Source: Agromyces sp. Root81
Lineage (GTDB): Bacteria; Actinomycetota; Actinomycetes; Actinomycetales; Microbacteriaceae
NCBI RefSeq assembly: GCF_001429165.1
Contig: NZ_LMIR01000002.1
Span: forward strand, 186,001-250,000
DNA length: 64,000 bases
Reading direction: 5' to 3'
Part shown: piece after piece, positions 36,914 to 55,256 of the stretch
How the letters are laid out: every line of letters begins with the position of its first letter
Numbering within the stretch: position 1 is the first letter of the stretch
Notes under the pieces: generated by a model
Seen by the model: only the letters and a program-made list of their open reading frames with translations
The model's database searches: none
What the model was told of the DNA's origin: nothing
Translations under genes and position numbers: made by a program

Positions 36914-37897
36914 ATGCCCGTCGCATCGTCTACCCGCCAGCGCCCCAGCGCACAGGTGCACACCATCCGCGCGCGCGATCTCAACGAGTTCCGCAACGGC
37001 GCCTCCGAGGCGTTCGTACCGTTGCAGGTCACGAGCCCCCGTCCCGACCGGTTCCGCGGCGTCATCCGCACCGCCGGCATCGACGAGGTGCACGTGAGCG
37101 ACCTCCATGCCACCGGCCATGTGGTCGAACGCACCCCCGAGCTCATCAGCCGCGGCAATCGTCCGTTCTTCAAGCTGAGCCTCATGCTCGCCGGAACCGG
37201 GCTGCTCATCCAGGACGACCGGGAGGCGGTGCTGCAGCCCGGCGACCTCGCCGTCTACGACACGAACCGGCCGTACTCGCTCGTCTTCGACGAGGAGTTC
37301 CGCACCATGGTCGTCATGTTCCCGAAGCACCTCATCGATCTGCCCGCCGAGGTCGTCGGCCAGCTCACCGCGGTGCGGATGTCGGGATCCGAGGGACTCG
37401 GCGGGGTCATCGGCCCCTACCTCGCCCAGCTCGCCGGCAACCTCGAGCAGCTCTCGGGGCCCACGGGAATGCGGCTCGCGCACTCCGCACTCGACCTCAT
37501 CACCACGCTGTTCGCCGGAGAGCTCGACCTCGATCGCGCGGCGGCGGACCCGCACCATGCGCTCATGCAGCGCATCAGGGGGTACATCGAGGAGCATCTC
37601 GCCTCGACCGAACTCGGTCCGGCCTCGATCGCCGCCGCGCATTTCATCTCGACGCGCCACCTGCACGGTCTCTTCCACGAGCAGGGCACGACCGTGTCGA
37701 CGTGGATCCGCACACGACGGCTCGAGAACTGCCGGCGCGATCTCGTGAATCCGCTGCACGCCGACCGCGCGGTCTCCGTCATCGCCGCCCGCTGGGGATT
37801 CGTGGACGCCGCGCATTTCAGCCGCGCATACAAGTCGCAGTTCGGGCATGCGCCGAGCGAGGCACGGGCGCTGGCCGGGGTCGCCGTGCGGCGATGA
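36914..37897 (+). CDS. AraC family transcriptional activator, NphR/FeaR-like
   Basis: A 327-residue regulator. The N-terminal about 190 residues form an AraC-binding-like sensor domain (FKLSLMLAGTGLLIQDDREAVLQPGDLAVYDTNRPY), and the C-terminal about 100 residues carry two helix-turn-helix motifs (ASIAAAHFISTRHLHGLF and VSVIAARWGFVDAAHFSRAYK). The type resembles activators of aromatic amine and phenol catabolism such as FeaR and NphR. It stands beside an amine permease and amine oxidase genes, so activation of that cluster is a reasonable inference. GAGGTG precedes the ATG. Confidence 0.88.
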   Translation: MPVASSTRQRPSAQVHTIRARDLNEFRNGASEAFVPLQVTSPRPDRFRGVIRTAGIDEVHVSDLHATGHVVERTPELISRGNRPFFKLSLMLAGTGLLIQDDREAVLQPGDLAVYDTNRPYSLVFDEEFRTMVVMFPKHLIDLPAEVVGQLTAVRMSGSEGLGGVIGPYLAQLAGNLEQLSGPTGMRLAHSALDLITTLFAGELDLDRAAADPHHALMQRIRGYIEEHLASTELGPASIAAAHFISTRHLHGLFHEQGTTVSTWIRTRRLENCRRDLVNPLHADRAVSVIAARWGFVDAAHFSRAYKSQFGHAPSEARALAGVAVRR

Positions 37898-37901
37898 CGA
37901 G

Positions 37902-37927
37902 GTGCCCGGGCGCGCACGGCCGGGCAC
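37902..37927. terminator. Bidirectional terminator
   Basis: GTGCCCGG (37902-37909) and CCGGGCAC (37920-37927) with a 10-base loop, between the convergent araC-type gene (ends 37897) and permease gene (ends 37935). Confidence 0.6.
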
Positions 37928-37934
37928 GTCCGGA

Positions 37935-39467
37935 TCACCGACCGGCGCCGGGTGCGCCGAACTCGGCCGTGCCGAGCTGCTCCGCGGTCTCGTCGCCGCC
38001 GTGGCCGATGCGGGCGTAGACGTCGGGCCGACTCCGCCGCAGGCGGTAGCCCCACATGACGCCGATCACTCCTGGCACGATGGCGATCGCGGGCAGCAGG
38101 TAGGTCGTGAGGTCTGGCTCGGCCTGGCCGAGGAGCACCGTGAAGTTCGTGAGGATGAGCACGAACACGATGGCGAGCGCGATCGCCGCGACGATCGGCG
38201 CGACGAGGCGGCTGCCGACGCCGACACCGCGGTGGTCGCGACGGAAGTACCCGACGACGGCGACCGAGACCACGGCCATCAGCAGCACGAGGCCGAGCGC
38301 ACCGGTGTTGGTGAGCCAGGTGAAGAGCGTGATGACGGGGTAGGGACCGGCCGCCGGGTCCCAACCGACCTCGGCGACCGCGAAGAGCGCGACCACCACG
38401 AGCGCGAGCACCGACTGCGCGACCGAGCCGGCCCACGGCGCGCCGTTGCGCCCGACCGCGGCGAGCTTCGCGGGCAGCACGCCCTCGCGCCCGAGCGAGA
38501 ACAGGTAGCGCGCCACCGCGTTGTGGAAGCTCACGAGCGCGGCGAAGATGCTCGTGATGAACAGGAGCGACATGATGTCGACCCAGACGACGCCGAGCCG
38601 TTCGGCGACGAAGCCGAAGAAGAGCGGCGGACCGGCCTCCTCAGGCGTGATGCCGGCGGGATCGACGATCTTGTCGACGCCGATCGCGAGCGCGAGCGCC
38701 CACGACGAGATCGCGTAGAACACGCCGATCACCGCGACGGCGAGGAACGTCGCGCGCGGGATCGTGCGGCGCGGGTCCTTCGACTCCTCGCTGTAGATCG
38801 CGGCCGACTCGAATCCCATGAAGCCGGCGATGCCGAACGCGAGCACGGCACCGACCCCTGGCACGAAGAGCGAGGAAGGCTCGATCGGCACGGTCGAGAA
38901 GCCGGCGGCCGGCTCGGCGAACGCCACGACGTCGAACACGATGACGACGACGAACTCGGCGGCGACGAGCACACCGAGCACCTTGGCCGAGAGGTCGACG
39001 CGGTTCACTCCCATCCAGCCGACGATGACGATGCCGACCACGACGCCGACCCACCAGGGGATGTCGGCGCCCGTCTTCTCGGCGATGAACATCGACACCT
39101 GGAAGCCGAACATGCCCCAGATGCCGATCTGCATCAGGTTGTAGGCGACGAGCGCCACGACCGATGCGCCCACGCCCGCGGGTCGCCCGATGCCCTGCGC
39201 CACGTAGGCGTAGAACGCCCCCGCATTCGTGACGAAGCGGCTCATCGCGGCGTAGCCGATCGCGAAGACGGCGAGCGCGGCGGCGAGCAGGATGAATGCG
39301 ACCGGCATGCCAGCGACGTGGGTCACCGAGAAGGTCGAGGTCACCCCGCCAGCGATGACGGTGAGCGGTGCGGATGCCGCGACGATGAGGAACGCGACGC
39401 CGATGACGCCGAGCCGACGGCGAACGGCTGCGGGCGCCGGTGGGGCGTCGGTGCGTGGGGTGGTCAT
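37935..39467 (-). CDS. APC family amino acid/amine permease
   Basis: A 510-residue transporter of the amino acid-polyamine-organocation superfamily, with about twelve membrane spans. Typical features are the broken first helix AASAPLTVIAGG, FAIGYAAMSRFVTNAGAFYAYVAQGIGR and GFMGFESAAIYSEESKDPRRTIPRA. The substrate is probably an amino acid or primary amine; the divergent amine oxidase cluster favours an amine. AAGGAG is six bases before the ATG at 39467. It lies 131 bases downstream of the TetR gene on the same strand. Confidence 0.88.
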   Translation of the reverse strand: MTTPRTDAPPAPAAVRRRLGVIGVAFLIVAASAPLTVIAGGVTSTFSVTHVAGMPVAFILLAAALAVFAIGYAAMSRFVTNAGAFYAYVAQGIGRPAGVGASVVALVAYNLMQIGIWGMFGFQVSMFIAEKTGADIPWWVGVVVGIVIVGWMGVNRVDLSAKVLGVLVAAEFVVVIVFDVVAFAEPAAGFSTVPIEPSSLFVPGVGAVLAFGIAGFMGFESAAIYSEESKDPRRTIPRATFLAVAVIGVFYAISSWALALAIGVDKIVDPAGITPEEAGPPLFFGFVAERLGVVWVDIMSLLFITSIFAALVSFHNAVARYLFSLGREGVLPAKLAAVGRNGAPWAGSVAQSVLALVVVALFAVAEVGWDPAAGPYPVITLFTWLTNTGALGLVLLMAVVSVAVVGYFRRDHRGVGVGSRLVAPIVAAIALAIVFVLILTNFTVLLGQAEPDLTTYLLPAIAIVPGVIGVMWGYRLRRSRPDVYARIGHGGDETAEQLGTAEFGAPGAGR

Positions 39468-39598
39468 GATTCTCCTTCGAATCGACGGCGAAAGCCGGTG
39501 CAGCAGTCGGGGGCTGCCATGATTCTCCGATCGACCCACCGCCGCGACTGTGCTGAGCGTGCACGATGCTTGTCCGGGCGGGAACTCCCCGGCCGGAC

Positions 39599-40195
39599 CT
39601 ACCGTTCGCGGGCGAGTCCGGCGAGGAGGTTCTCGAGCGCGCTGCGTTGACGCCGGGCCGTCGCGAGCTCGGGTGCCAGTCGGCACATGGCCTGCAGTCC
39701 CGTCATCATCCAGATGAGCTGGTCGACGATCTCCGCATCGCTGTCGGGTGTCGTGATCTGCCCGTCGGCACGCCCCTCGGCGAGCCGACGCTCGAGCTCG
39801 GCCATCCAGAGCTTCGTATGGCGGCGGTAGACCGTCGCCATCCGGTCGTTGCCGACGGCCCGCTCCCAGAAGGCCACGACGATGCGCGCCTCGGTGCGCC
39901 GTTCCTCGTCGAGCGGCATGATCTCGAGGCAGAGGCGACGCACGGCCTCGATGCCGCGCACCGCACCGATGGCCGCGACGGCGCGTTCGTTGGTTCGCTC
40001 GAACGCCCGCTGGTAGGCGGCCTGCAGCAGTTCATCCTTGCTCGCGAAGTACGGCTTGACCGCCCCGTTCGCGAGTCCCTGCTCTGCCGCGACCCGTCGC
40101 AGCGTGACCGCGTCGACGCCCTCGTGCTCGATGATGCGCCAGGTGACATCGATCACGGCGTCCCGCCTGGCCGACTTGTCGACGATCTTCGGCAT
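39599..40195 (-). CDS. TetR family transcriptional regulator
   Basis: A 198-residue regulator with an N-terminal helix-turn-helix (residues about 10-55: AVIDVTWRIIEHEGVDAVTLRRVAAEQGLANGAVKPYFASKDEL by position) and a helical ligand domain. It is divergent from the copper amine oxidase gene, and GGGGGAGAG precedes the ATG at 40195. It probably represses the amine oxidase operon, its own gene and the permease, responding to an amine or aldehyde; that is inference from arrangement. The CTCCCACGGGAG palindrome at 40277-40288 is a candidate site. Confidence 0.87.
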   Translation of the reverse strand: MPKIVDKSARRDAVIDVTWRIIEHEGVDAVTLRRVAAEQGLANGAVKPYFASKDELLQAAYQRAFERTNERAVAAIGAVRGIEAVRRLCLEIMPLDEERRTEARIVVAFWERAVGNDRMATVYRRHTKLWMAELERRLAEGRADGQITTPDSDAEIVDQLIWMMTGLQAMCRLAPELATARRQRSALENLLAGLARER

Positions 40196-40276
40196 GTGCG
40201 TCTCTCCCCCGTCGACGCCCAGGCGGTGCCGACGTTCGAATGCTAGCGACACCCGGGCCGAGCCGTGTACGTTGTT

Positions 40277-40288
40277 CTCCCACGGGAG
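40277..40288. promoter_or_regulatory. Palindrome in the divergent tetR / amine oxidase control region
   Basis: CTCCC-AC-GGGAG, a perfect 5-bp inverted repeat, in the 197-base gap 40196-40392. A GATACT box near 40359-40364 could be the amine oxidase -10 and a minus-strand TAGCAT (40245-40240) the tetR -10; both lack good -35 partners. Confidence 0.45.
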
Positions 40289-40392: not shown

Positions 40393-42396
40393 ATGACGCA
40401 CCACCACGACACGCACCAGCACGACACGTACCGCCACGATGCAGGCGGCGCCGCCGTCGCCCACCCGCTCGACCCGCTGTCGGCCGAAGAGATCGCCGCG
40501 GCACGTGAGATCCTCACGGGCGCCGGGATCATGACGGAGACAACGCGCGTTCCGCAGTTGCTGCCGGTGGAGCCGCCGAAGGAGGAGCTCGCCGAGTGGA
40601 CGCCGGGCGCCCCCGTCGACCGGCGCATCGCCGTGACACTGCTCGAGCCCGCGACCGGCCGTTCCAGCGAGGCCGTCGTCTCCGTGACACGGCGCGAGGT
40701 GCTCGAGCACCATGGACTCGAGACCGGCGCCGCCCCCTACGGGCAGCCGCAGTACCTCTTCGAGGAGTACGACGCGGCGGCCGCGATCGCGAAGGCCTCG
40801 CCCGACTGGCGGGCCGCGATGACCCGCCGCGGGCTCGAGGATCGCATCGAGCTCGCGTTCTGCGCACCGCTCGCCCCGGGGTTCTTCAACCGCCCCGAGG
40901 AGGTCGGGCGCCGGGTCATCCGCTCGCTCACCTTCCTGCGCGACAGCCCGACCGACAGCCCCTGGGCGCACCCGGTCGAGGGACTCATCGTGCACATCGA
41001 CCTCACCGAGGGCCGCGTCATCGGCGTCGAGGACGAGGGCGACGTGCCGGTGCCCGCCGAGCACGGCAACTACACCCCGGATGCCACCGGCCGGGCCCGC
41101 ACGAGCCTGAAGCCCATCGAGATCACCCAGCCCGAGGGGCCGAGCTTCGCCGTCGACGGCAACGCCGTCGAGTGGGAGAACTGGAAGTTCCGCGTGGGCT
41201 TCAACGCCCGCGAGGGGCTCGTGCTGAACCAGCTCACCTTCCGCGACGGCGACGAGGACCGCTCCGTGATCCACCGCGCGAGCGTGCCCGAGATGGTGGT
41301 GCCCTACGGCGACACCACCTCGACGCGGTTCTGGATCAGCTATTTCGACGCGGGCGAGTACCTGCTCGGCAAGAACGCCAACCCGCTCTCGCTCGGCTGC
41401 GACTGCCTCGGCGTCATCCACTACTTCGACGGCTTCGTCGCCGACGACCGCGGCAACCCCGTCAAGATCCCGCAGGTCGTCTGCATGCACGAGGAGGACT
41501 ACGGCATCCTCTGGAAGCACACCGACCTCGACGGCGATTCCGAGGTGCGCCGCAGCCGCCGCCTCGTGATCTCGTACTTCTCGACGATCGGCAACTACGA
41601 CTACGGGTTCTTCTGGTACCTCTACCTCGACGGCACCATCCAGGTCGAGGCGAAGGCCACCGGCATCGTCTTCGCCGGCGCCGGACACCCCGGCGAGCAG
41701 AACCCGCACGCCCCCGAGATCGCCCCCGGACTCTACGCGCCGGTGCACCAGCACCTGTTCTGCGCCCGCCTCGACATGGCGATCGACGGCGAGGACAACA
41801 CGGTGCACGAGATCGACGCCGTCGGCATCCCCACGGGGCCGGCGAACCCCATGGGCAACGCGTTCACGTGGACGTCGACACAGCTCGCCCGCGAATCCGA
41901 GGCGCAGCGACTCGCCGACACCTCGAAGGCCCGCACCTGGGAGGTCGCGAGCGCGAGCCGCGTGAACCGGCTCGGTAAGCCGACCGCCTACCACCTGCTC
42001 CCCCAGCCCGGCCCGACCCTGCTCGCGCAGCCCGACTCGACCGTCTCCGGCCGCGCCACGTTCGCGACGAAACACCTCTGGGCCACGGCGTTCGACCCGG
42101 CCGAGCGCTTCCCAGCCGGCGACTACCCGAACGCCCACGCCGGCGGCGCTGGCCTGCCGGCATGGACGGCAGCCGACCGCGACCTCGACGGCGCCGACAT
42201 CGTGCTCTGGCACGTCTTCGGCCCGACGCACATCCCCCGCCCAGAGGACTGGCCGATCATGCCCGTCGACTACTCGGGCTTCGTGCTGAAGCCCTACGGC
42301 TTCCTCGACCGCAACCCCGCGCTCGACCTGCCGGACTGGAGCCGGCACGGCGAGGCATCCTGCTGCACGGGCGGCAGCTGCACCTGCGACCACTGA
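40393..42396 (+). CDS. Copper-containing primary amine oxidase (TPQ cofactor)
   Basis: A 667-residue homodimeric quinoenzyme that oxidises primary amines to aldehydes, releasing NH3 and H2O2. The precursor of the TPQ cofactor is Tyr402 in the NYD motif, the catalytic base Asp319 (YFDAGEY) and the copper ligands His452, His454 (HQHLF) and His613. Length matches the Arthrobacter phenethylamine/histamine oxidase class. Unusual are a His-rich N-terminus built from HDTHQ/HDTYR repeats and a C-terminus ending CCTGGSCTCDH, both potential metal-binding tails. With MoaF-like and aldehyde dehydrogenase genes following, it is the entry enzyme for aryl-ethylamines. Confidence 0.95.
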   Translation: MTHHHDTHQHDTYRHDAGGAAVAHPLDPLSAEEIAAAREILTGAGIMTETTRVPQLLPVEPPKEELAEWTPGAPVDRRIAVTLLEPATGRSSEAVVSVTRREVLEHHGLETGAAPYGQPQYLFEEYDAAAAIAKASPDWRAAMTRRGLEDRIELAFCAPLAPGFFNRPEEVGRRVIRSLTFLRDSPTDSPWAHPVEGLIVHIDLTEGRVIGVEDEGDVPVPAEHGNYTPDATGRARTSLKPIEITQPEGPSFAVDGNAVEWENWKFRVGFNAREGLVLNQLTFRDGDEDRSVIHRASVPEMVVPYGDTTSTRFWISYFDAGEYLLGKNANPLSLGCDCLGVIHYFDGFVADDRGNPVKIPQVVCMHEEDYGILWKHTDLDGDSEVRRSRRLVISYFSTIGNYDYGFFWYLYLDGTIQVEAKATGIVFAGAGHPGEQNPHAPEIAPGLYAPVHQHLFCARLDMAIDGEDNTVHEIDAVGIPTGPANPMGNAFTWTSTQLARESEAQRLADTSKARTWEVASASRVNRLGKPTAYHLLPQPGPTLLAQPDSTVSGRATFATKHLWATAFDPAERFPAGDYPNAHAGGAGLPAWTAADRDLDGADIVLWHVFGPTHIPRPEDWPIMPVDYSGFVLKPYGFLDRNPALDLPDWSRHGEASCCTGGSCTCDH

Positions 42397-42419: not shown

Positions 42420-43241
42420 ATGACGGCACTCACCCCCACCGACACGACCACCTGGCTGCCGCTCGACGGGCTGGCACCGGGCTTCGACGCGAACAGGGCG
42501 CCGCACTCGACGGCGCTCGCCGGGCGGATCCTCACCACGCTCGACGACCGCGGCACCCGCATCGCGCACACCTTCACCGAGCAGACGGTCACGTGGACGG
42601 TCGAACCCGGGGCCGGCGACGCCACCGCGGCGTCCACCGCGACCGACGACTACGAGGCGTTCGAGGTCGACGACGAGCTGTACTTCGTGCAGTTCCACCA
42701 CCGCACCCGGCCTCACGAGGCCGTCTCCCTCGTGCTCGACCTGCGCGCGGGCCGTGCGCTCGCGGTCGTGCAGACCCTCGGCGATGCGGCGCCCGGGCGC
42801 ACCGCCGTGCAGCAGGCGTTCGTACCGTCGGTGATCGAGGAGCTCGAGACCTCGGGCAGGCCGGCGGCACCGACGAACTCGCTCATCGGCCGCCGCGTGA
42901 TGTGGGTCTACAGCACCGAGCACGCCTACGAGCACGTCTACCTCTCGCCCCAGTGGTACACGTGGCAGTGCCTCGCCGGCCCCGAGCGCGGCCTCGCCGA
43001 CACCGACGAGCACACCACGTTCGAGGTGCGCCCCGGCATCAACGTCTTCGCCTGGCGCGAGAAGGTGATCCCGTGCGGCTCGGTCACGATCGCCGACCAC
43101 CGGGACGCGCGGGCGATCCGCTCGCACGGCGTGCTCTTCGGCGAGAACGAGGCGGGCGGCTGGACCCATTTCACGTTCGGCGCCCACGGGCGACTCATCT
43201 CCGCCACCGTGCACCCCGACGAATACGACCCGGCGCGCTGA
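42420..43241 (+). CDS. moaF: MoaF family protein (monoamine-induced)
   Basis: A 273-residue protein with the two-part MoaF pattern: the N-terminal half includes DDYEAFEVDDELYFVQFHH, and the C-terminal half STEHAYEHVYLSPQWYTWQCLAGPE and CDYFKI-like variants such as VFAWREKVIPCGSV. MoaF was found as a monoamine-regulated gene in enteric bacteria; its biochemical role is unclear and the molybdenum label in databases is probably misleading. Its place between amine oxidase and aldehyde dehydrogenase supports a role in amine catabolism. GGAAGG lies seven bases before the ATG. The stop codon lies inside a 13-bp tandem repeat. Confidence 0.8.
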   Translation: MTALTPTDTTTWLPLDGLAPGFDANRAPHSTALAGRILTTLDDRGTRIAHTFTEQTVTWTVEPGAGDATAASTATDDYEAFEVDDELYFVQFHHRTRPHEAVSLVLDLRAGRALAVVQTLGDAAPGRTAVQQAFVPSVIEELETSGRPAAPTNSLIGRRVMWVYSTEHAYEHVYLSPQWYTWQCLAGPERGLADTDEHTTFEVRPGINVFAWREKVIPCGSVTIADHRDARAIRSHGVLFGENEAGGWTHFTFGAHGRLISATVHPDEYDPAR

Positions 43242-43402: not shown

Positions 43403-44812
43403 ATGGAACAGTACGAAACGCTCCTCGCCGCCGTCGCCGCACCCGCGGGCGACGGCCGCGAGGTCTTCGACCCGGCGACCGGCGATCTCATCGCCGCCGC
43501 ACCCGCCGACACGACCGCGGCGCTCGACGACGCCGTCGCGCGCGCCGTGGCCGCGCAGCCCGCGTGGGCTGCGCGGAGCGACGAGGAGCGACGTCAGGCG
43601 CTGCACCGCATGGCCGACGCGGTCGAGCGTTCGGCCGACGCCCTCGCCGAACTGCTGTCGCGCGAGCAGGGAAAGCCCCTGAACGGCCCGAACGCCCGCT
43701 TCGAGGTGGGCGCGTGCGCGACCTGGCTGCGCGTCACCGCCGACACTCCCCTGCCGACCGAGGTCGTCGTCGACGACGGCACCGACTACGCCGAGCTGCA
43801 CTACCGGCCGATCGGCGTCGTCGGCGTGATCACCCCGTGGAACTGGCCGATGCTGATCGCGATCTGGCAGATCGCCCCGTCGCTGCGCATGGGCAACACC
43901 GTCGTCGCCAAGCCCTCCGAGTACACGACGCTCTCGGGCCTCGCGCTGCTCGCCGTCCTGAACCAGGAGCTCCCCGAGGGCGTGCTGAACCCCGTCGCCG
44001 GCGCCGGCGACCTCGGCGCCGCCCTCGTCGTGAAGCCCGAGCTCGGCAAGATCATGTTCACCGGCTCGACCGCGACGGGCAAGCGCATCATCGAGGCATC
44101 CGCCGGGAACGTCACCCGCCTCACGCTCGAGCTCGGCGGCAACGACGCCGGCATCGTGCTGCCCGATGCCGACCCGGTCGCGATCGCCGAGAACCTCTTC
44201 TGGGGCGCGTTCATCAACACCGGCCAGACGTGCGCGGCGCTGAAGCGCCTCTACGTGCACGACTCGGTCTACGACGCGGTCTGCCTCGCTCTCGTCGAGG
44301 TCGCGAAGGCGATGCCGATGGGCGTCGGCCTCGACGAGCAGAACGTGCTCGGCCCGTTGCAGAACCGCATGCAGTTCGGCGTCGTCGACCGCCTCGTCGA
44401 AGCGGCCAAGGCGTCGGGCGCCCGCGTGCTGCTCGGCGGCGAGCCCGATCGCGACCAGCCGGGCAACTTCTACCCGACGACGCTCATCGCCGACATCGAC
44501 CCGCAGAATCCCCTCGTCGTCGAGGAGCAGTTCGGTCCGGCCCTGCCGATCGTGCGGTACAGCGACGTCGAGGAGGCGATCGCCCTCGCGAATGCCGCAG
44601 ACGTCGGCCTCGGCGCCTCCGTCTGGTCGGGCGACCGCGACGCCGCGCGCGCCATCGCAGCGCGCGTGCAGGCCGGCACGGTGTGGATCAACTCGCACGG
44701 CGGCGTGCACCCGATGATCCCCTTCGGCGGCGTCAAGCAGTCGGGCTACGGCCTGGAGTTCGGCACCGAGGGCCTGAAGTCGGTCTCGGCTCCCCAGGTC
44801 GTCAACGGCTGA
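43403..44812 (+). CDS. Aldehyde dehydrogenase, aryl acetaldehyde type
   Basis: A 469-residue NAD(P)-dependent aldehyde dehydrogenase. The general base Glu243 (TLELGG) and nucleophile Cys277 (NTGQTC) are present, as are the cofactor motif FTGSTATGK and the C-terminal PFGGVKQSGYG. As the third gene after amine oxidase it should oxidise the aldehyde product, for example phenyl-, 4-hydroxyphenyl- or 3,4-dihydroxyphenyl-acetaldehyde, to the acid. GGAGG is five to six bases from the ATG. A hairpin terminator follows at 44828-44861. Confidence 0.92.
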   Translation: MEQYETLLAAVAAPAGDGREVFDPATGDLIAAAPADTTAALDDAVARAVAAQPAWAARSDEERRQALHRMADAVERSADALAELLSREQGKPLNGPNARFEVGACATWLRVTADTPLPTEVVVDDGTDYAELHYRPIGVVGVITPWNWPMLIAIWQIAPSLRMGNTVVAKPSEYTTLSGLALLAVLNQELPEGVLNPVAGAGDLGAALVVKPELGKIMFTGSTATGKRIIEASAGNVTRLTLELGGNDAGIVLPDADPVAIAENLFWGAFINTGQTCAALKRLYVHDSVYDAVCLALVEVAKAMPMGVGLDEQNVLGPLQNRMQFGVVDRLVEAAKASGARVLLGGEPDRDQPGNFYPTTLIADIDPQNPLVVEEQFGPALPIVRYSDVEEAIALANAADVGLGASVWSGDRDAARAIAARVQAGTVWINSHGGVHPMIPFGGVKQSGYGLEFGTEGLKSVSAPQVVNG

Positions 44813-44979: not shown

Positions 44980-45144
44980 ATGTGCCGAGCAGTGACCTGC
45001 AAGAAGTGCGGCAAGACCACCTGGGCCGGCTGCGGCCAGCACGTCGACTCGGTCATGCGCGGCGTTCCGCGGGGCGACCGGTGCGGCGGCCACGAGAACG
45101 ACCCGTCCGAGCCCGGCTTCTTCGCGCGACTCTTCGGCCGCTGA
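44980..45144 (+). CDS. Small Cys-rich protein under a CsoR-type site
   Basis: A 54-residue protein that begins MCRAVTCKKCGKTTWAGCGQ. Four cysteines (2, 7, 10, 18) and His21 sit in a compact zinc-ribbon-like N-terminus, a fifth cysteine follows at about 35, and the C-terminus is short and ends in an aromatic-basic tail. I recall very similar small proteins in many actinobacteria without assigned function. The upstream CsoR-type operator suggests induction by copper, persulfide or formaldehyde-like stress. No clear ribosome site other than CGAGGAA about seven bases before the ATG. Confidence 0.75.
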   Translation: MCRAVTCKKCGKTTWAGCGQHVDSVMRGVPRGDRCGGHENDPSEPGFFARLFGR

Positions 45145-48625: not shown

Positions 48626-49414
48626 ATGTTGCTGGACCAGACCCGGATCGAAGAGATCGCCGACGAACTCGTCGCGGCTCACCACGATCGAAGCACCGTG
48701 CCGCTCCTCACCGCCAGGAACCCCGGCATGACCGTCGACGACGCCTACGCCGTGCAGAGCGTCTGGGCGAAGCGACGCCAGGCCGACGGCGCACGCCTCG
48801 TGGGCCGCAAGATCGGCCTCACCTCGAAGGTCATGCAGGTGGCCACCGGTATCACCGAGCCCGACTATGGTGTCATCTTCGACGACATGGTCGTCGAGTC
48901 CGGGGCATCCGTCGAGTTCGACCGCTTCTCGAACGTGCGCATCGAGGTCGAGCTCGCCTTCGTGCTCGCCAAGCCCTTGCAGGGCCCGGATGTCACGATC
49001 TTCGACGTGCTCGACGCCACCGCCTACGTCGTGCCGGCGCTCGAGATCCTGAACTCGCACATCGAGATGCAGGGCCGCACGATCGTCGACACCATCTCGG
49101 ACAACGCCGCGATGGGCGCCATGGTGGTCGGCGGCCGGCCCGTGAAGGTCGACGACGTGGACCTCCGCTGGATCTCCGCCCTGCTGTACCGCAACCAGAC
49201 GATCGAGGAGTCGGGCGTCGCCGCCGCGGTGCTCGGCCACCCCGCCATGGGCGTCGCCTGGCTCGCGAACAAGCTCGCCCAGCACGACCAGTCGCTCGAG
49301 GCCGGCGAGATCATCCTCGCCGGATCGTTCACCCGGCCCATGTGGGTCGAGCGCGGCGACACCGTGCACGCCGACTACGGACAGCTGGGAGCCGTGACAT
49401 GCCGATTCGAATGA
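48626..49414 (+). CDS. hpaH: 2-oxo-hept-4-ene-1,7-dioate hydratase (HpaH family)
   Basis: A 262-residue hydratase of the FAH-superfamily MhpD/HpaH group, adding water to 2-oxohept-4-ene-1,7-dioate in the homoprotocatechuate pathway. Family blocks are GRKIGLTSKVMQ, VRIEVELAFVLAKPLQGP (metal-binding Glu pair) and the C-terminal AGEIILAGSFTRPM. The next gene is the HpaI-type aldolase that cleaves the product, starting 16 bases before this stop. Start ATG at 48626 has GGAG only three bases away; an in-frame GTG at 48617 is an alternative. Confidence 0.9.
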   Translation: MLLDQTRIEEIADELVAAHHDRSTVPLLTARNPGMTVDDAYAVQSVWAKRRQADGARLVGRKIGLTSKVMQVATGITEPDYGVIFDDMVVESGASVEFDRFSNVRIEVELAFVLAKPLQGPDVTIFDVLDATAYVVPALEILNSHIEMQGRTIVDTISDNAAMGAMVVGGRPVKVDDVDLRWISALLYRNQTIEESGVAAAVLGHPAMGVAWLANKLAQHDQSLEAGEIILAGSFTRPMWVERGDTVHADYGQLGAVTCRFE

Positions 49415-50205
49415 ACCTCCCCGCGACCCTCACGGCCCGCGTCGCGGCATCCGATCGCCCGCTCGTGGGCATGTGGGTGTGCTCGGGCAGCCCGATCATG
49501 GCCGAGCTCGCCGCAGGCAGCGGCCTCGACTGGGTGCTCATCGACGCCGAGCACTCCCCCAACGGCCTCGAGTCGATCCTCGCGCAGCTCTACGCCGTGT
49601 CGGCCTACCCGGTCGCGCCCGTCGTGCGCCCGCCGATCGGCGACACCGTGCTGATCAAGCAGTACCTCGACCTCGGTGTGCAGAACCTGCTCGTGCCGAT
49701 GGTCGACTCGGCCGCGCAGGCCGCCGAGCTCGCGCGCGCGGTGCGCTACCCCGCCGACGGCGTACGCGGCGTCGGCGCCGCCCTCGCCCGGTCGTCGCGC
49801 TGGAACCGGGTCGACCGGTACCTGCACGACGCCGCGTCGACGATCAGCCTCACCGTGCAGATCGAGTCGGCGACCGCCGTCGCGGCCGTCGAGGAGATCG
49901 CCGCGGTCGACGGCGTCGACGCCCTGTTCATCGGCCCCGCCGACCTCGCGGCCTCGATGGGGCTGCTCGGCCAGCAGTCGCACCCCGACGTCGTCGAGGG
50001 CGTGCTGCGGTCGATCCGCGCGGGAGTCGCGGCGGGCAAGCCCGTCGGCGTCAACGCCTTCGTGCCCGCCGACGCGGAGCGCTACCTCGCTGCCGGCGCG
50101 TCGTTCGTCTCCGTCGGCGCGGATGTCGCGATCGTCGCCCGCGCCTCCGAGGCGCTCGCCGATCGGTTCATCCCGGCGGATGGTTCGACCCGCGCGAGCT
50201 ACTGA
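49399..50205 (+). CDS. hpaI: 4-hydroxy-2-oxo-heptane-1,7-dioate aldolase (HpaI family)
   Basis: A 268-residue class II pyruvate aldolase that splits 4-hydroxy-2-oxoheptane-1,7-dioate into pyruvate and succinic semialdehyde. His52, Arg77, Glu156 and Asp182 line up, at a constant offset of seven, with His45, Arg70, Glu149 and Asp175 of E. coli HpaI (catalytic His/Arg and metal ligands). The ATG at 49399 has GGGAG seven bases upstream and overlaps hpaH by 16 bases; an ATG at 49411 (ATGA overlap) is the alternative. A hairpin follows at 50212-50240. Confidence 0.93.
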   Translation: MPIRMNLPATLTARVAASDRPLVGMWVCSGSPIMAELAAGSGLDWVLIDAEHSPNGLESILAQLYAVSAYPVAPVVRPPIGDTVLIKQYLDLGVQNLLVPMVDSAAQAAELARAVRYPADGVRGVGAALARSSRWNRVDRYLHDAASTISLTVQIESATAVAAVEEIAAVDGVDALFIGPADLAASMGLLGQQSHPDVVEGVLRSIRAGVAAGKPVGVNAFVPADAERYLAAGASFVSVGADVAIVARASEALADRFIPADGSTRASY

Positions 50206-50240: not shown

Positions 50241-50242
50241 AG

Positions 50243-50251: not shown

Positions 50252-50281
50252 CATTTCAGATATCTAGAGACGAGGACGTCA

Positions 50282-51784
50282 ATGACCGACGGCATCCCCA
50301 CCCCCGGCAAGATCATCGCCGTGCACCTCAACTACCCGTCGAGGGCAGCGCAGCGCGGTCGCACGCCCGCCCAGCCGAGCTACTTCCTGAAGCCCGCCTC
50401 CTCGCTCGCCCCGACCGGCGCAACGCTCGAACGCCCCACGGGCACCGAGCTGCTCGCCTTCGAGGGCGAGATCGCGATCGTCATCGGCGAGCCCGCCCGG
50501 CGCGTCTCCCCTGCCGACGGCTGGAAGCACGTGGCATCCGTCACCGCGGCCAACGACTTCGGCCTCTACGACCTGCGCGCCGCGGACAAGGGCTCCAACG
50601 TGCGTTCGAAGGGCGGCGACGGCTTCACCCCGCTCGGTCCGGCCGCGATCCCCGCAGCTGGCATCGGCGAGGGCGACTGGCGCGTTCGCACCTGGGTGAA
50701 CGGGCGCCTCGTGCAGGAGGACACCTCCGACACCCTGCTCTTCCCGTTCGGCCGGCTCGTCGCCGACCTCTCCCAGCTGATGACCCTCGAGACCGGCGAT
50801 GTGATCCTCACGGGCACGCCCGCCGGCTCCTCGGTCGTGCTGCCCGGCGATGTCGTCGAGGTCGAGGTCGACGCCCCGGGCGCCCCCGGCGCGCCGAGCA
50901 CCGGACGGCTCGTCACGACGATCACCCAGGGCACCGCCGAGTTCGGCGACTTCGGTACGAAGCCCGCAACCGACGACCTCCAGCGCGTCGAGGCATGGGG
51001 CAGCGACGAGGAGCTCGCCGCTGCCGTCGCCGTCGGCCGCGCATCGGCACCCGCCTCGACCACCGCAGCGGATGCCTCGAGCCCCGCATTCGAGCTCACC
51101 GACGAGCTGCGCGCCGACTTCGGCCGCGTCGCCGTCGCGACGCTCTCGGTCGCGCTCCGCAAGCGCGGCTACCACGACATCTTCATCGAGGGCGTCGCCG
51201 CCAACCACCCCGGCGACCGCATCGTCGGCCGCGCGAAGACGCTCCGGTTCATCCCCTTCCGCCCCGACCTCTTCCAGAGCCACGGCGGCGGCTTCAACGC
51301 GCAGAAGCTCGCCTTCGACACGGTGGCACCCGGTGAGGTGCTCGTCGTCGAGGCCCGCGGCGAGCGCGGCACCGGCACCGTGGGCGACGTGCTGGCCCTC
51401 CGCGCCCAGGTGCGCGGCGCCGTCGGCATCGTCACCGACGGCGGCGTCCGCGACTTCGACGCGGTCGCCGGATTCGAGATCCCCGTCTTCTCGCAGGGCG
51501 CGCACCCCTCCGTGCTCGGCCGGCGTCACGTGCCCTGGGAGGTCGACGTCACGATCGCCTGCGGCGGTGCAGCAGTGCAGCCCGGCGACGTCATCGTCGG
51601 CGACGGCGACGGCGTCATCGTCATCCCGCCGCAGCTCGTCGAGGAGGTGCTGGCCGAAGCGCTCGAACAGGAGCGGCAGGACGCGTACGTGGCCGAGCAG
51701 GTCGCGGCCGGGGCATCCGTCGACGGGCTCTTCCCCATGAACGCCGAGTGGCTCGCGCGGTATCGCGCCGCACAGGGGGCGTGA
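50282..51784 (+). CDS. Fumarylacetoacetate hydrolase-like domain fused to an RraA-like domain
   Basis: A 500-residue two-domain protein. Residues about 10-230 form an FAH-fold domain with metal ligands Glu61, Glu63 and Asp92 (FEGEIA, NDFG), like the HpaG family. After an Ala/Ser linker (about 245-270), residues 275-480 form an RraA/HMG-aldolase-like domain with GDVLALRA (369-376), TDGGVRD (385-391) and GDGDGVIVIP. HpaG normally consists of two FAH-type halves giving OPET decarboxylase and HHDD isomerase. Here the RraA half may replace the decarboxylase half, since RraA relatives decarboxylate oxaloacetate. That assignment is inference. The stop shares one base with the GntR gene start. Confidence 0.85.
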   Translation: MTDGIPTPGKIIAVHLNYPSRAAQRGRTPAQPSYFLKPASSLAPTGATLERPTGTELLAFEGEIAIVIGEPARRVSPADGWKHVASVTAANDFGLYDLRAADKGSNVRSKGGDGFTPLGPAAIPAAGIGEGDWRVRTWVNGRLVQEDTSDTLLFPFGRLVADLSQLMTLETGDVILTGTPAGSSVVLPGDVVEVEVDAPGAPGAPSTGRLVTTITQGTAEFGDFGTKPATDDLQRVEAWGSDEELAAAVAVGRASAPASTTAADASSPAFELTDELRADFGRVAVATLSVALRKRGYHDIFIEGVAANHPGDRIVGRAKTLRFIPFRPDLFQSHGGGFNAQKLAFDTVAPGEVLVVEARGERGTGTVGDVLALRAQVRGAVGIVTDGGVRDFDAVAGFEIPVFSQGAHPSVLGRRHVPWEVDVTIACGGAAVQPGDVIVGDGDGVIVIPPQLVEEVLAEALEQERQDAYVAEQVAAGASVDGLFPMNAEWLARYRAAQGA

Positions 51785-52491
51785 TGACCCCGCAGACCGA
51801 GCGTTCGACAGAGAGCAAGTCGCAGCAGGCGTACCGCTTCATCCGCACGCGCATCGACGACGGCCGCTACGTGCCGGGCTATCGACTCGTGCTCGGCGCT
51901 ATCGCGCGCGAACTCGACGTCTCCGTGGTGCCGGTGCGCGAGGCGATCCGACTGCTCGAGGCCGAGGGACTCGTCACCTTCGAGCGCAACGTCGGCGCGC
52001 AGGTCGCCCTCGTGAAGGAGACCGAGTACCTGCACACGATGGAGACGCTCGCGCTCGTCGAGGGCGCGGCGACGGCGCTCTCTGCACCGTTCATCTCCCC
52101 CGACCACATCCGTCGGGCCCGCGAGGTCAACGAACGGATGCGGCGCACCCTCGACGACTTCGAACCGCACCGCTTCACCGAGCTCAACCTCGAGTTCCAC
52201 TCGGTGCTCTTCGAGGAATGCCCGAACCCGCACATCCTCGACCTCGTGCACCGCGGCTGGAACCGCATGACGGTGCTGCGCGACTCCTCGTTCAGCTTCG
52301 TGCCCGGGCGCGCGCACGAGTCGGTCGAGGAGCACGAGCGCATCCTGCAGCTCATCGAGCAGGGCGGCGACGCCCTCGAGGTCGAGCTCACCGCTCGTCG
52401 CCACCGCACCGCGACGCTCGACGCGGTGCTCGCCTACCAATCACGGCAATCGCACCCCGCAGCGGAGGCCGCGGAGGCGCCGCTCGGCTGA
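51784..52491 (+). CDS. GntR family regulator, FCD subgroup
   Basis: A 235-residue regulator. The N-terminal winged helix-turn-helix (about 15-75: QQAYRFIRTRIDDGRY, then GAIARELDVSVVPVREAIRLLEAEGLV by position) is GntR-type, and the helical C-terminal domain has the FCD pattern with metal-type histidines (NLEFHSVLF, EHERILQLIE). It begins in the stop of the FAH-RraA gene (TGATG). It probably binds the ATATACGAT sites at 48.5 and 50.2 kb and responds to homoprotocatechuate or a ring-cleavage product. Confidence 0.9.
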   Translation: MTPQTERSTESKSQQAYRFIRTRIDDGRYVPGYRLVLGAIARELDVSVVPVREAIRLLEAEGLVTFERNVGAQVALVKETEYLHTMETLALVEGAATALSAPFISPDHIRRAREVNERMRRTLDDFEPHRFTELNLEFHSVLFEECPNPHILDLVHRGWNRMTVLRDSSFSFVPGRAHESVEEHERILQLIEQGGDALEVELTARRHRTATLDAVLAYQSRQSHPAAEAAEAPLG

Positions 52492-52572
52492 GCCGACTCC
52501 TGTCCGCCTCGCACCGACATCCACGACCCGGGACCTGAACGGTCCGACCCGCACCGACCGAAGGAAGACCGC

Positions 52573-54069
52573 ATGACGCACTACATCCCCGAGGACCTGC
52601 CCGACCGCATCCGCCACTTCATCGACGGCGAGTTCGTCGACTCCGTCGGCGGCGAGACGTTCGACGTGCTCGACCCCGTGTCGAACGAGACGTACGTGCA
52701 GGCCGCCGCGGGCCAGCAGGCCGACATCGACCTCGCCGTCGCCGCAGCGAAGCGCGCGTTCGACGACGGCCCCTGGCCCCGCATGCTCCCCCGCCAGCGC
52801 TCGCGCGTGCTGCACCGCATCGCCGACCTCATCGAGGCGCGCGACGCCCGGCTCGCCGAACTCGAGACCTTCGACACCGGCCTGCCGATCACGCAGGCCC
52901 TCGGCCAGGCGCAGCGCGCCGCCGAGAACTTCCGGTTCTTCGCCGACCTCATCGTCGCCCAGCGCGACGACACCTACAAGGTGCCCGGTCGTCAGGTGAA
53001 CTACGTGAACCGCAAGCCGATCGGCGTCGCCGGGCTCATCACGCCGTGGAACACGCCCTTCATGCTCGAGTCGTGGAAGCTCGCCCCCGCGCTCGCGACC
53101 GGCAACACCGTCGTGCTGAAGCCCGCCGAGTTCACGCCCCTGTCGGCGTCGCTCTGGGCCGAGATCTTCCGCGAGGCCGGCGTGCCCGACGGCGTCTTCA
53201 ACCTCGTCAACGGACTCGGCGAAGAGGCCGGCGACGCGCTCGTCAAGCACCCCGACGTGCCCCTCATCTCCTTCACCGGCGAGAGCCGCACCGGCCAGAT
53301 CATCTTCGGCAACGCCGCGCCGTTCCTGAAGGGCCTCTCGATGGAGCTCGGCGGCAAGTCGCCCGCCGTCGTCTTCGCCGACGCCGACCTCGACTCCGCG
53401 CTCGACGCGACCGTCTTCGGCGTCTTCTCGCTGAACGGCGAGCGCTGCACCGCCGGCTCCCGCGTGCTCGTCGAGCGCCCGATCTACGACGACTTCGTCG
53501 CCCGCTACGCCGAGCGCGCGAAGAACATCGTGGTCGGCGACCCGCACGACCCGAAGACCGAGGTCGGGGCGCTCGTGCACCCCGAGCACTACGAGAAGGT
53601 CATGTCCTACGTCGAGATCGGCAAGACCGAGGGCCGCCTCGTCGCCGGCGGCGGCCGCCCCGAGGGCTTGGAGACCGGCAACTACGTGGCCCCCACGGTG
53701 TTCGCGGATGTCTCGCCCGACGCCCGCATCTTCCAGGAGGAGATCTTCGGACCCGTCGTCGCGATCACGCCGTTCGACACCGACGAGGAGGCGCTCGAGC
53801 TCGCGAACAACACGCGCTACGGGCTCGCCGCCTACATCTGGACCAACAACCTCAAGCGCGCCCACAACTTCGCCCAGTCGGTCGAGGCCGGCATGGTGTG
53901 GCTGAACTCGAACAACGTGCGCGACCTCCGCACCCCCTTCGGCGGCGTCAAGGCGTCGGGCCTCGGGCACGAGGGCGGCTACCGCTCGATCGACTTCTAC
54001 ACCGACCAGCAGGCCGTGCACATCACCCTCAACGAGGCGCACTCGCCGCGCTTCGGCACCAACAAATAG
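52573..54069 (+). CDS. hpaE: 5-carboxymethyl-2-hydroxymuconate semialdehyde dehydrogenase
   Basis: A 498-residue NAD-dependent aldehyde dehydrogenase. Glu258 (MELGGK) and Cys292 (GERCTAGSR) are the catalytic pair; the NTPFMLESWKLAPALATGNT and SFTGESRTGQ blocks match the HpaE/HpcC group. It oxidises the semialdehyde made by HpaD, encoded next. AAGGAAG precedes the ATG. The 81-base gap from the GntR gene has a small GGACC/GGTCC hairpin but no copy of the shared motif. Confidence 0.93.
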   Translation: MTHYIPEDLPDRIRHFIDGEFVDSVGGETFDVLDPVSNETYVQAAAGQQADIDLAVAAAKRAFDDGPWPRMLPRQRSRVLHRIADLIEARDARLAELETFDTGLPITQALGQAQRAAENFRFFADLIVAQRDDTYKVPGRQVNYVNRKPIGVAGLITPWNTPFMLESWKLAPALATGNTVVLKPAEFTPLSASLWAEIFREAGVPDGVFNLVNGLGEEAGDALVKHPDVPLISFTGESRTGQIIFGNAAPFLKGLSMELGGKSPAVVFADADLDSALDATVFGVFSLNGERCTAGSRVLVERPIYDDFVARYAERAKNIVVGDPHDPKTEVGALVHPEHYEKVMSYVEIGKTEGRLVAGGGRPEGLETGNYVAPTVFADVSPDARIFQEEIFGPVVAITPFDTDEEALELANNTRYGLAAYIWTNNLKRAHNFAQSVEAGMVWLNSNNVRDLRTPFGGVKASGLGHEGGYRSIDFYTDQQAVHITLNEAHSPRFGTNK

Positions 54070-54113
54070 CGGCGACCCCCGCGACATCCGCTCAGAGAAG
54101 AGAAAGCACCACC

Positions 54114-55256
54114 ATGAACGAACCCATCATCACCCCAGACGCACCGGAGCCCGTCGTGACCGCTGCCGACCCGGTGCCCGCGCCGGTGAACCGCATCCCG
54201 ACGCCGAAGGCGCCCGCGCCCGACATCCTGCGCTGCGCGTACATGGAGCTCGTCGTCACCGACCTCGAGGCCAGCCGCAAGTTCTACGTCGACGTGCTCG
54301 ACCTCGTCGTGACCGAGGAGGACGAGAACACCGTCTACCTCCGCTCCTTCGAGGAGTTCATCCACCACAACCTCGTGCTGCGCAAGGGCCCCGTCGCCGC
54401 GGTCGCCGCGTTCAGCTACCGCGTGCGCAGCCCAGAAGAACTCGACAAGGCCGTCGCCTTCTACGAGGAGCTCGGCTGCCGCGTCGAGCGCCGCTCGGAG
54501 GGCTGGACCAAGGGCATCGGCGACTCGGTGCGCGTCGAGGACCCGCTGGGCTTCCCCTACGAGTTCTTCTACGACGTCGAGCACGTCGAGCGGCTCGCGT
54601 GGCGCTACGACCTCTACACGCCGGGCGCGCTCGTGCGCCTCGACCACTTCAACCAGGTCACCCCCGACGTGCCCCGCGCGGTCGCCTACATGGAGGACCT
54701 CGGCTTCCGCGTCACGGAGGACATCCAGGACGAGGCCGGCACCACCTACGCCGCGTGGATGCGCCGCAAGCCCACCGTGCACGACACCGCCATGACCGGT
54801 GGCGACGGCCCGCGCATGCACCACGTCGCATTCGCCACGCACGAGAAGCACAACATCATCGCGATCTGCGACAAGCTCGGCGCGCTCCGCCGCTCCGACG
54901 CGATCGAGCGCGGCCCGGGCCGCCACGGCGTCTCGAACGCCTTCTACCTGTACCTGCGCGACCCCGACGGCCACCGCGTCGAGATCTACACGCAGGACTA
55001 CTACACGGGCGACCCCGACAACCCCGTCGTCACGTGGGACGTGCACGACAACCAGCGCCGCGACTGGTGGGGCAACCCCGTCGTGCCGAGCTGGTACACG
55101 GATGCCTCGCTGGTGCTCGACCTCGACGGCAACCCGAAGGAGCTCGTCTCGCGCATCGACGACTCCGAGATGGACGTCACGATCGGCGCCGACGGCTTCT
55201 CGTACACGCGCAAGGGCGATGAGGAGCAGGGCTTCAAGCTCGGCAACACGCTGTAG
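54114..55256 (+). CDS. hpaD: 3,4-dihydroxyphenylacetate (homoprotocatechuate) 2,3-dioxygenase
   Basis: A 380-residue extradiol dioxygenase of the two-domain VOC class that opens the homoprotocatechuate ring. His178, His237 and Glu290 match, with a constant offset of 23, the metal ligands His155, His214 and Glu267 of Brevibacterium fuscum HPCD; His223 and Tyr280 match catalytic His200 and Tyr257. The offset reflects an Ala/Pro/Val-rich N-terminal extension; a GTG at 54186 would give the usual length but has no ribosome site. Fe versus Mn use (as in Arthrobacter MndD) cannot be told from sequence. Confidence 0.96.
   Translation: MNEPIITPDAPEPVVTAADPVPAPVNRIPTPKAPAPDILRCAYMELVVTDLEASRKFYVDVLDLVVTEEDENTVYLRSFEEFIHHNLVLRKGPVAAVAAFSYRVRSPEELDKAVAFYEELGCRVERRSEGWTKGIGDSVRVEDPLGFPYEFFYDVEHVERLAWRYDLYTPGALVRLDHFNQVTPDVPRAVAYMEDLGFRVTEDIQDEAGTTYAAWMRRKPTVHDTAMTGGDGPRMHHVAFATHEKHNIIAICDKLGALRRSDAIERGPGRHGVSNAFYLYLRDPDGHRVEIYTQDYYTGDPDNPVVTWDVHDNQRRDWWGNPVVPSWYTDASLVLDLDGNPKELVSRIDDSEMDVTIGADGFSYTRKGDEEQGFKLGNTL

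Follow-up and report, generated by a model that had tools for sequence, protein, structure and literature searches.

The type of the enterobacterial hpa operon is that of Escherichia coli W. A 3,4-DHPA catabolon of Pseudomonas putida U, in which tyn and hpa genes serve tyramine and dopamine, was reportedly described by Arcos et al. in 2010. For Gram-positive bacteria, excerpts of two reports indicate that tyrosine catabolism proceeds via 4-hydroxyphenylacetate (4-HPA) (PMC2991359, PMC3534580). One of them describes growth of Arthrobacter sp. Rue61a on 4-HPA and tyrosine and proposes a homoprotocatechuate meta pathway (PMC3534580); the hydroxylase may already have an assignment in its supplementary Table S3.6. 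The excerpt of the other states that no gene was located in Arthrobacter arilaitensis Re117 for 4-hydroxyphenylpyruvate (4-HPP) oxidase or 4-HPA 3-monooxygenase (PMC2991359). According to an excerpt of its description, GapMind does not include a route through 4-HPP oxidase because too little is known about it (PMC9007349).

We analyzed a 64,000-nt stretch of the genome of the soil-type actinobacterium Agromyces sp. Root81 (the window), in which genes for amine oxidation adjoin hpa genes. We consider it probable that this island is an actinobacterial catabolic unit for homoprotocatechuate (3,4-dihydroxyphenylacetate [DOPAC]) with amine entry, a hydroxylase other than HpaB, and a FAH-RraA enzyme. 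The analysis establishes gene identities (through homology), co-occurrence, linkage, recurrent synteny, and conserved residues; every substrate, together with the roles of the hydroxylase, the ThDP-dependent enzyme, and the FAH-RraA fusion, is one that we infer.

Organization of the island

A first-pass annotation of positions 36914..55256 had located all of its named genes correctly, as judged by coordinates and homology, but its list was incomplete, the ThDP-dependent enzyme, the MHS/MFS transporter, and a Cys-rich open reading frame (ORF) having been overlooked (Table 1). A near-identical contiguous island was found in two other genera (loci L140 and L148).

Table 1. Features of the island (positions in the window)
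Feature	Position	Strand	Remarks
AraC-type regulator	36914..37897	+	nearest NCBIfam model FeaR, 157 bits, below cut-off 199
APC-family permease, candidate amine/amino-acid importer	37935..39467	-	
TetR-family regulator	39599..40195	-	
Copper/TPQ primary-amine oxidase	40393..42396	+	nearest solved relative phenylethylamine oxidase, PDB 1rjo
MoaF protein, MoaF N + C domains	42420..43241	+	
Aldehyde dehydrogenase, probable aryl-acetaldehyde dehydrogenase	43403..44812	+	67% identity to TC1 gene annotated maoB/feaB
Cys-rich ORF, 54 aa	44980..45144	+	without Pfam match
ThDP-dependent enzyme, acetolactate synthase/pyruvate oxidase type	45288..46955	+	start may be 45300
MHS-type MFS transporter, candidate aromatic-acid importer	47062..48450	-	TIGR00883 398 bits, below cut-off 443
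HpaH, 2-oxo-hept-4-ene-1,7-dioate hydratase	48626..49414	+	360.7 bits, cut-off 351.5
HpaI-type aldolase	49399..50205	+	295.7 bits, below cut-off 368.8
FAH-RraA fusion	50282..51784	+	PRK12764, 792.8 bits, cut-off 444
GntR/FCD regulator	51784..52491	+	
HpaE, CHMS dehydrogenase	52573..54069	+	675 bits, cut-off 638.35
HpaD, homoprotocatechuate 2,3-dioxygenase	54114..55256	+	430 bits, cut-off 321.4

Ring cleavage and the FAH-RraA fusion

HpaH, HpaE, and HpaD passed the NCBIfam equivalog cut-offs and HpaI did not; the identity of HpaI comes partly from gene context because its score lies under the cut-off. HpaD scored above the curated cut-off for 3,4-dihydroxyphenylacetate 2,3-dioxygenase, its residues 26 to 378 aligned with the solved enzyme 1q0c, and the CHMS dehydrogenase, hydratase, and aldolase of the homoprotocatechuate pathway were all present in the island. 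The CHM isomerase of the pathway, HpaF, was not found in the 64,000-nt window with the Erwinia HpaF protein, which is recognized by Pfam and matched the Pantoea control. The HpaF model PF02962 had no match genome-wide, an absence that is uncontrolled because the PF02962 control also matched nowhere. The FAH-RraA fusion, aligned with ORFs of 470 to 620 residues only (58 plus that of the window), is a candidate OPET decarboxylase/isomerase that may replace both HpaG and HpaF. Decarboxylation without CHMI is possible in vitro, according to an excerpt of one study (PMC12718150).

A candidate hydroxylase encoded outside the island

Profile and protein searches bore out the first-pass observation that HpaB is missing from the window and extended it to the genome. 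The HpaB N- and C-domain models (PF11794 and PF03241) matched nowhere in the whole genome, both having matched in control genomes, and the Erwinia HpaB and HpaC proteins had no match in the 64,000-nt window; as a control, the Erwinia HpaB query recovered six of six tested Microbacteriaceae HpaB loci and the Pantoea locus. The step from this absence to the lack of any ring hydroxylase, and hence to dopamine as the substrate, did not hold, since the genome encodes an intact flavin hydroxylase of 635 residues (FMO) that tracks HpaD. This single-component enzyme of the 3-hydroxybenzoate hydroxylase type, with FAD_binding_3 and Phe_hydrox_dim domains, is encoded 1.16 Mb from the island (G000:C2:1399519-1401432), so that the island is not self-contained, as had been proposed, if FMO is used. 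Residues D75, H135, K247, and Y271 of 2dkh, which we take to be active-site residues, are kept in the alignment of FMO with this 3-hydroxybenzoate hydroxylase, its nearest solved structure. An IclR gene adjoins the FMO gene, as in 14 of the 32 FMO loci examined.

HpaD matches of at least 392 bits were counted as strong, a limit that was set, like that between close and distant amine oxidases (see below), after the lists were seen; it retained 108 of the 112 Microbacteriaceae genomes above the HpaD cut-off. Among the matches listed for 299 genomes of the family, FMO was present in 103/108 strong-HpaD genomes versus 3/191 others. The four genomes dropped for weak HpaD matches (G010, G086, G132, and G276; 331 to 336 bits) have no FMO ortholog, G086 having HpaB, and their inclusion gives 103/112. 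Three FMO genomes without HpaD (G008, G074, and G219) showed lower FMO identities (51 to 57%). All five strong-HpaD genomes lacking FMO carry HpaB, located within 8 kb of hpaD in four of them, and none of the 108 lacks both enzymes. HpaB above the cut-off was missing from 85 of the 108, every one of which has the flavin hydroxylase (85/85); lack of HpaB should not be taken as lack of 4-HPA hydroxylation. The FMO and HpaD states agreed in 78 of 78 genomes belonging to 15 genera with both states; apart from the within-genus comparison, the co-occurrence p-values ignore phylogeny. Outside the Microbacteriaceae, in an order-level sample, FMO was present, among the matches listed, in 31/31 strong-HpaD genomes versus 1/122 others (31/34 if the dropped weak-match genomes G378, G404, and G430 are included) and lay within 20 kb of HpaD in 28 of the 31. 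Counts of HpaD, FMO, and ThDP genes concern the matches listed, those used being well inside the listed part. Four of the 103 Microbacteriaceae FMO genes appear in pieces (G201, G205, G218, and G285).

These results suggest that the island's apparently missing hydroxylase is probably an enzyme of another kind, with its gene at a distant site in the genome, and that FMO would hydroxylate 4-HPA to DOPAC. The genome also has seven PF08028 matches (acyl-CoA-dehydrogenase-like), from among which a C2-type 4-HPA hydroxylase may come, perhaps as an extra enzyme; the flavin hydroxylase by itself accounts for the observed profile.

An island dedicated to dopamine, converted via DOPAL to DOPAC for ring cleavage with the hydroxylation step unused, would fit a window without a hydroxylase of the two kinds searched, a genome without HpaB, and the adjacency of the genes for the remaining steps. 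We regard such dedication as unlikely, because the genome carries a hydroxylase that tracks HpaD in two genome samples and because the amine oxidase is paired with a hydroxylase in two plasmid relatives (see below); the use of 4-HPA and tyrosine by Arthrobacter sp. Rue61a, with the meta pathway proposed in the excerpt (PMC3534580), also argues against it. The island is thus probably not dedicated to dopamine, which could nonetheless be a substrate; tyramine and 4-HPA, which we consider more likely, are again candidate substrates because the intact FMO of this genome belongs to the HpaD-tracking group. FMO could also be a 3-hydroxyphenylacetate (3-HPA) 4-hydroxylase, as its relationship to 2dkh would suggest, and the island would then serve m-tyramine and 3-HPA, or dopamine, rather than tyramine. 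We give this reading little credence, since HpaB, found in the five HpaD genomes lacking FMO, is the 4-HPA 3-hydroxylase family, and Gram-positive tyrosine catabolism passes through 4-HPA in the excerpts cited above (PMC2991359, PMC3534580).

Amine oxidase and amine entry

The amine oxidase contains a Cu_amine_oxid domain (498 bits), and its NYDY and HQH motifs, presumably the TPQ and copper sites, respectively, aligned with those of phenylethylamine oxidase. The catalytic domain, the TPQ motif, and the copper-binding histidines identify it as a TPQ copper amine oxidase, and its predicted substrate is a hydroxylated phenethylamine, tyramine and/or dopamine. The aldehyde dehydrogenase reached no NCBIfam equivalog cut-off. 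For the survey of amine oxidases, 90 of 96 matching genomes were kept, four fragment matches and five matches of 24 to 27% identity being omitted. The close amine-oxidase subfamily is accompanied by HpaD in 30 of the 31 Microbacteriaceae genomes carrying it; in 17 of these 30 the two genes are no more than 60 kb apart (about 3% expected by chance), whereas distant Cu amine oxidases showed no association with HpaD (p = 0.88). Only one of seven sampled genomes of the window's genus, its own, has the close enzyme. This co-occurrence and linkage, together with the recurrent gene set, support the earlier proposal that the amine oxidase, the aldehyde dehydrogenase, and homoprotocatechuate cleavage form one functional unit. 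That two unrelated clusters are simply neighbors, one for phenethylamine oxidation that supplies phenylacetate for use elsewhere and the other an hpa cluster for hydroxyphenylacetates, could explain the phenylethylamine oxidase as nearest relative, the different regulators (FeaR-like, TetR, and GntR), the mixed strands, and the 12 genomes, among the 30 that have both genes, in which no HpaD, FMO, or ThDP gene was seen within 60 kb of the close amine oxidase (on contigs separate from HpaD in 6 of the 12), but is unlikely given the near confinement of the close subfamily to HpaD genomes and its linkage to hpaD.

The ThDP-dependent enzyme

The ThDP-dependent enzyme, whose nearest solved relatives are acetolactate synthases, is a candidate 4-HPP oxidase (which we take to be EC 1.2.3.13) or decarboxylase. 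Among the matches listed for the Microbacteriaceae, its gene was present in 83/108 strong-HpaD genomes versus 7/191 others at a threshold of at least 291 bits (at least 43% identity), a boundary that is not clean: the next match has 280 bits and 39% identity, and the seven genomes without HpaD include three at 43 to 44%. It was missing from 25 of the 108.

Related loci

Two plasmids, one from Rhodococcus sp. NBC_00297 and one from P. aurescens TC1, group an amine oxidase, FMO, FAH-RraA, GntR, HpaE, HpaD, HpaH, HpaI, and the aldehyde dehydrogenase, FMO having the amine oxidase on one side and the hpa genes on the other; a succinate-semialdehyde dehydrogenase is annotated separately. Their amine oxidases are of a more distant kind (52 to 55%), and no ThDP gene was found in the 26 kb examined of these clusters. 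Two further HpaD loci on actinobacterial plasmids (L164 and L165) showed no FMO in the 25 kb examined. Erwinia HpaF, HpaB, and HpaC had no match in the sequence examined (less than 20 kb for 18 of the loci) of 80 actinobacterial-type HpaD loci, which are the best scoring of a longer scan rather than a random sample. The homoprotocatechuate cluster of Rhodococcus ruber is listed, in an excerpt, with a 4-HPA 3-monooxygenase and a tautomerase (PMC6498646); therefore, the FMO variant is not universal among actinobacteria.

Proposed pathway

If the island is a homoprotocatechuate catabolic unit, the amine oxidase would convert tyramine and/or dopamine to the aryl-acetaldehyde and the aldehyde dehydrogenase would yield the aryl acetate. 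Where the latter is 4-HPA, FMO, as a single-component FAD monooxygenase, would form DOPAC. HpaD would cleave the DOPAC ring, HpaE would oxidize the semialdehyde, and the FAH-RraA fusion would perform the isomerization and decarboxylation carried out by HpaF and HpaG in enterobacteria, leaving HpaH and HpaI to produce pyruvate and succinic semialdehyde. The ThDP-dependent enzyme probably converts 4-HPP to 4-HPA, which would join tyrosine to the pathway. We extend this proposal tentatively, at somewhat less than even chances, to many Actinomycetales, in which FMO, a hydroxylase not homologous to HpaB, would be the unlocated 4-HPA 3-monooxygenase, the ThDP-dependent enzyme the unlocated 4-HPP oxidase, and FAH-RraA the replacement of HpaF and HpaG. 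The comparative evidence offers a concrete candidate gene for each of these two unlocated enzymes of Gram-positive tyrosine catabolism.

Comparison with known systems

The P. putida U catabolon resembles the island in that amine oxidation and aldehyde dehydrogenation feed homoprotocatechuate cleavage, and reportedly differs by its HpaBC-type hydroxylase and other amine-oxidation genes. The enterobacterial hpa operons on plasmids of Erwinia sp. E602 and Pantoea piersonii share HpaE, HpaH, and HpaI with the island, and their HpaD is about 80% identical to that of the window. In contrast, they have HpaR, HpaF, HpaG with two FAH stretches, HpaX, HpaA, and HpaBC, in place of which the island has GntR, FAH-RraA, and the MHS/MFS transporter. 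The clusters of P. aurescens TC1 plasmid pTC2 and strain NBC_00297 have the actinobacterial enzyme set, the amine oxidase, and the aldehyde dehydrogenase in common with the island; unlike it, they contain the flavin hydroxylase within the cluster and an amine oxidase of the distant type. Arthrobacter sp. Rue61a and A. arilaitensis Re117 share with it Gram-positive homoprotocatechuate meta cleavage, as far as the excerpts describe it (PMC3534580, PMC2991359). The genes for 4-HPP oxidase and 4-HPA 3-monooxygenase are given as unlocated in the excerpt on Re117 (PMC2991359), whereas the genome of the window has candidates for both.

Gene content of the island

Pfam and NCBIfam models placed every gene named in the first-pass annotation where it had been drawn and revealed two mid-island genes missing from it, encoding a ThDP-dependent enzyme and a transporter (see the table). 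The assignment of HpaD as a homoprotocatechuate 2,3-dioxygenase is based on an equivalog model and on alignment to the solved enzyme. The amine oxidase, whose nearest relative is phenylethylamine oxidase, retains the NYDY and HQH motifs, which we take to be the TPQ site and the copper ligands, respectively. A Cys-rich 54-residue open reading frame with no Pfam match (window positions 44980 to 45144) lies between the aldehyde dehydrogenase (ALDH) and ThDP genes, and sugar utilization genes (two Melibiase-type genes and one for a solute-binding protein) are located downstream (positions 55373 to 62571). The genome comprises 4.16 Mb in five contigs. Among the fetched loci, the closest named relative was Agromyces fucosus (L017), with 89 to 99% identity for the eight island genes found there.

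Features located in the genome of Agromyces sp. Root81 (window positions unless a contig or locus is named)
Feature	Position	Remark
ThDP-dependent enzyme	45288-46955	between the two halves of the island
MHS/MFS transporter	47062-48450	mid-island
Flavin hydroxylase	G000:C2:1399519-1401432 (contig 2 of this genome) = L136:9026-10933 (fetched locus)	intact, 635 aa

A candidate ring hydroxylase outside the HpaB family

The absence of HpaB, from which the first-pass annotation had deduced that only dopamine could flow straight through the island, was confirmed, as HpaB models found no match in this genome in searches whose controls worked. This is the rule in the family, with HpaD above the model cutoff in 112 of 299 genomes and HpaB in 27. 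Clustering of the open reading frames around the 80 best-scoring named HpaD loci revealed a conserved flavin hydroxylase of ~640 residues in 24 of them, often a few kilobases from the FAH-RraA gene. Among NCBIfam models, this hydroxylase scores best with PRK08294 (phenol 2-monooxygenase subfamily); of the solved structures, 3-hydroxybenzoate hydroxylase is the nearest. Conservation of D75, H135, K247, and Y271 of structure 2dkh, presumably active-site residues, favors a hydroxyaryl-carboxylate as the substrate, since phenol hydroxylase has an arginine in place of K247. The copy in the genome under study is 1.16 Mb away from hpaD and adjoins an IclR gene, a homolog of which flanks the hydroxylase in 14 of the 32 fetched loci that carry it.

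The hydroxylase (matches with 51% identity or more to the query, none of the further matches listed exceeding 38%) was present in 103 of the 108 family genomes with a strong HpaD match (at least 392 bits) versus 3 of the 191 others. All five exceptions have HpaB, within 8 kb of hpaD in four genomes and on another contig in one; none of the 108 genomes lacked both enzymes, and 18 had both. In the 15 genera mixed for HpaD presence, the hydroxylase and HpaD were concordant in 78 of 78 genomes. Outside the family, an order-level draw gave 31 of 31 strong-HpaD genomes versus 1 of 122 others, with the two genes at most 20 kb apart in 28 of the 31; HpaB exceeded the cutoff in only 5 of the 165 genomes of that draw. 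Counting weaker HpaD matches changed the proportions to 103/112 within and 31/34 outside the family. A second HpaD-like group (~325 to 336 bits; e.g., G131:C1:595213 and G092:C7:135446 in two sampled genomes) also occurred in genomes without strong HpaD.

The unlinked 3-hydroxybenzoate-hydroxylase-like FAD monooxygenase encoded beside the IclR gene is probably the hydroxylase of this pathway. Because the genome encodes this candidate of another family, exclusivity for dopamine is not supported; dopamine is still a possible substrate of the island.

Linkage of amine oxidation to ring cleavage

The proposal that amine oxidation is joined to ring cleavage was supported by co-occurrence, linkage, and recurrent gene sets. 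Of the 31 genomes with an amine oxidase that shares 59% identity or more with that of the window, 30 also have HpaD (Fisher P = 6e-14); in 17 of these 30, the amine oxidase gene was within 60 kb of hpaD, versus ~3% expected by chance. More distant amine oxidases, in 63 genomes, showed no association with HpaD (P = 0.88). Nearly the same set (AraC, APC permease, amine oxidase, ALDH, HpaH, HpaI, FAH-RraA, GntR, HpaE, and HpaD) occupies one stretch in two genomes of two other genera, G165 (L140) and G021 (L148), in neither of which were the TetR and MoaF genes detected. The ThDP gene lies between the HpaI and FAH-RraA genes in G165, rather than before HpaH, and elsewhere (C1:85408) in G021, where the APC match is weak (37%). 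A further genome, G142 (L145), groups a distant-type amine oxidase (51%), the hydroxylase, the ThDP enzyme, and hpa genes within 20 kb. Against the proposal, a close amine oxidase was found in only one of seven sampled genomes of the genus, that of the window itself, and an amine oxidase was within the examined stretch of only 5 of the 80 best-scoring named HpaD loci.

Candidates for two gaps in tyrosine catabolism

Orthologs of the ThDP enzyme (at least 291 bits and 43% identity, thresholds with no clean gap below them) were present in 83 of the 108 strong-HpaD genomes versus 7 of the 191 others. In 51 of the 83 genomes, the ThDP gene is at most 20 kb from hpaD or the hydroxylase gene, and it lies in the examined stretch of 23 of the 80 named loci. 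Its nearest solved relatives, with remote scores, are of the acetolactate synthase and pyruvate oxidase type. For Arthrobacter sp. Rue61a, 4-hydroxyphenylacetate (4-HPA), homoprotocatechuate, and tyrosine are reported as growth substrates (PMC3534580). A. arilaitensis also uses tyrosine, yet its genome paper states that no gene was located for either 4-hydroxyphenylpyruvate oxidase or 4-HPA 3-monooxygenase (PMC2991359). The GapMind text on tyrosine degradation indicates that the 4-hydroxyphenylpyruvate oxidase route was left out for lack of knowledge (PMC9007349). The flavin hydroxylase and the ThDP enzyme fit as candidates for the two genes unlocated in A. arilaitensis: the former is probably the 4-HPA 3-monooxygenase, whereas assignment of the latter to the oxidase is tentative.

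Comparison with known clusters

Plasmid-borne operons of Erwinia (L162) and Pantoea (L163) encode HpaF, a two-FAH HpaG, HpaX, and HpaBC. Their HpaD is ~80% identical to the actinobacterial enzyme although the neighboring genes differ, which suggests horizontal exchange of hpaD. Erwinia HpaF, HpaB, and HpaC had no matches in the stretches examined of the 80 actinobacterial-type loci, 18 of which were covered over less than 20 kb, and 74 of the 80 encode the FAH-RraA fusion. Alignment of 59 fusions revealed near-invariant residues, which we assume to be catalytic, in both the FAH (E61, E63, and D92) and RraA (R390 and D391) halves; both domains may thus be catalytic. The RraA half is plausibly an OPET decarboxylase, since the HMG/CHA aldolase, of the RraA fold, is described as having oxaloacetate decarboxylase activity (PMC5065237). 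A 2025 study reports that decarboxylation in vitro can proceed without CHMI and that CHMS dehydrogenase can oxidize succinic semialdehyde (PMC12718150). Other actinobacterial versions exist, since the description of the Rhodococcus ruber homoprotocatechuate cluster lists 4-HPA 3-monooxygenase and 4-oxalocrotonate tautomerase (PMC6498646).

Plasmid HpaD loci of Arthrobacter sp. StoSoilB13 (L164) and Embleya sp. NBC_00888 (L165) carry an FAH-type gene; neither the flavin hydroxylase nor HpaB was detected in the 25 kb examined. Clusters that combine amine oxidase, flavin hydroxylase, and hpa genes are on pTC2 of Paenarthrobacter aurescens TC1 (CP000476.1; L160), typed as conjugative in PLSDB, and on a plasmid of Rhodococcus sp. 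NBC_00297 (NZ_CP108042.1; L161). Both encode FAH-RraA, GntR, HpaE, HpaD (unannotated in pTC2 and found by tblastn), HpaH, and HpaI, together with an amine oxidase (52 to 55% identity to that of the window), an ALDH (67 to 70%), and the flavin hydroxylase (65 to 66%). A separate succinate-semialdehyde dehydrogenase is annotated on each plasmid, and its pairing with this ALDH favors an aryl-acetaldehyde rather than a succinic semialdehyde substrate for the enzyme of the window. On these two plasmids, the genes for amine oxidation and ring hydroxylation form one block.
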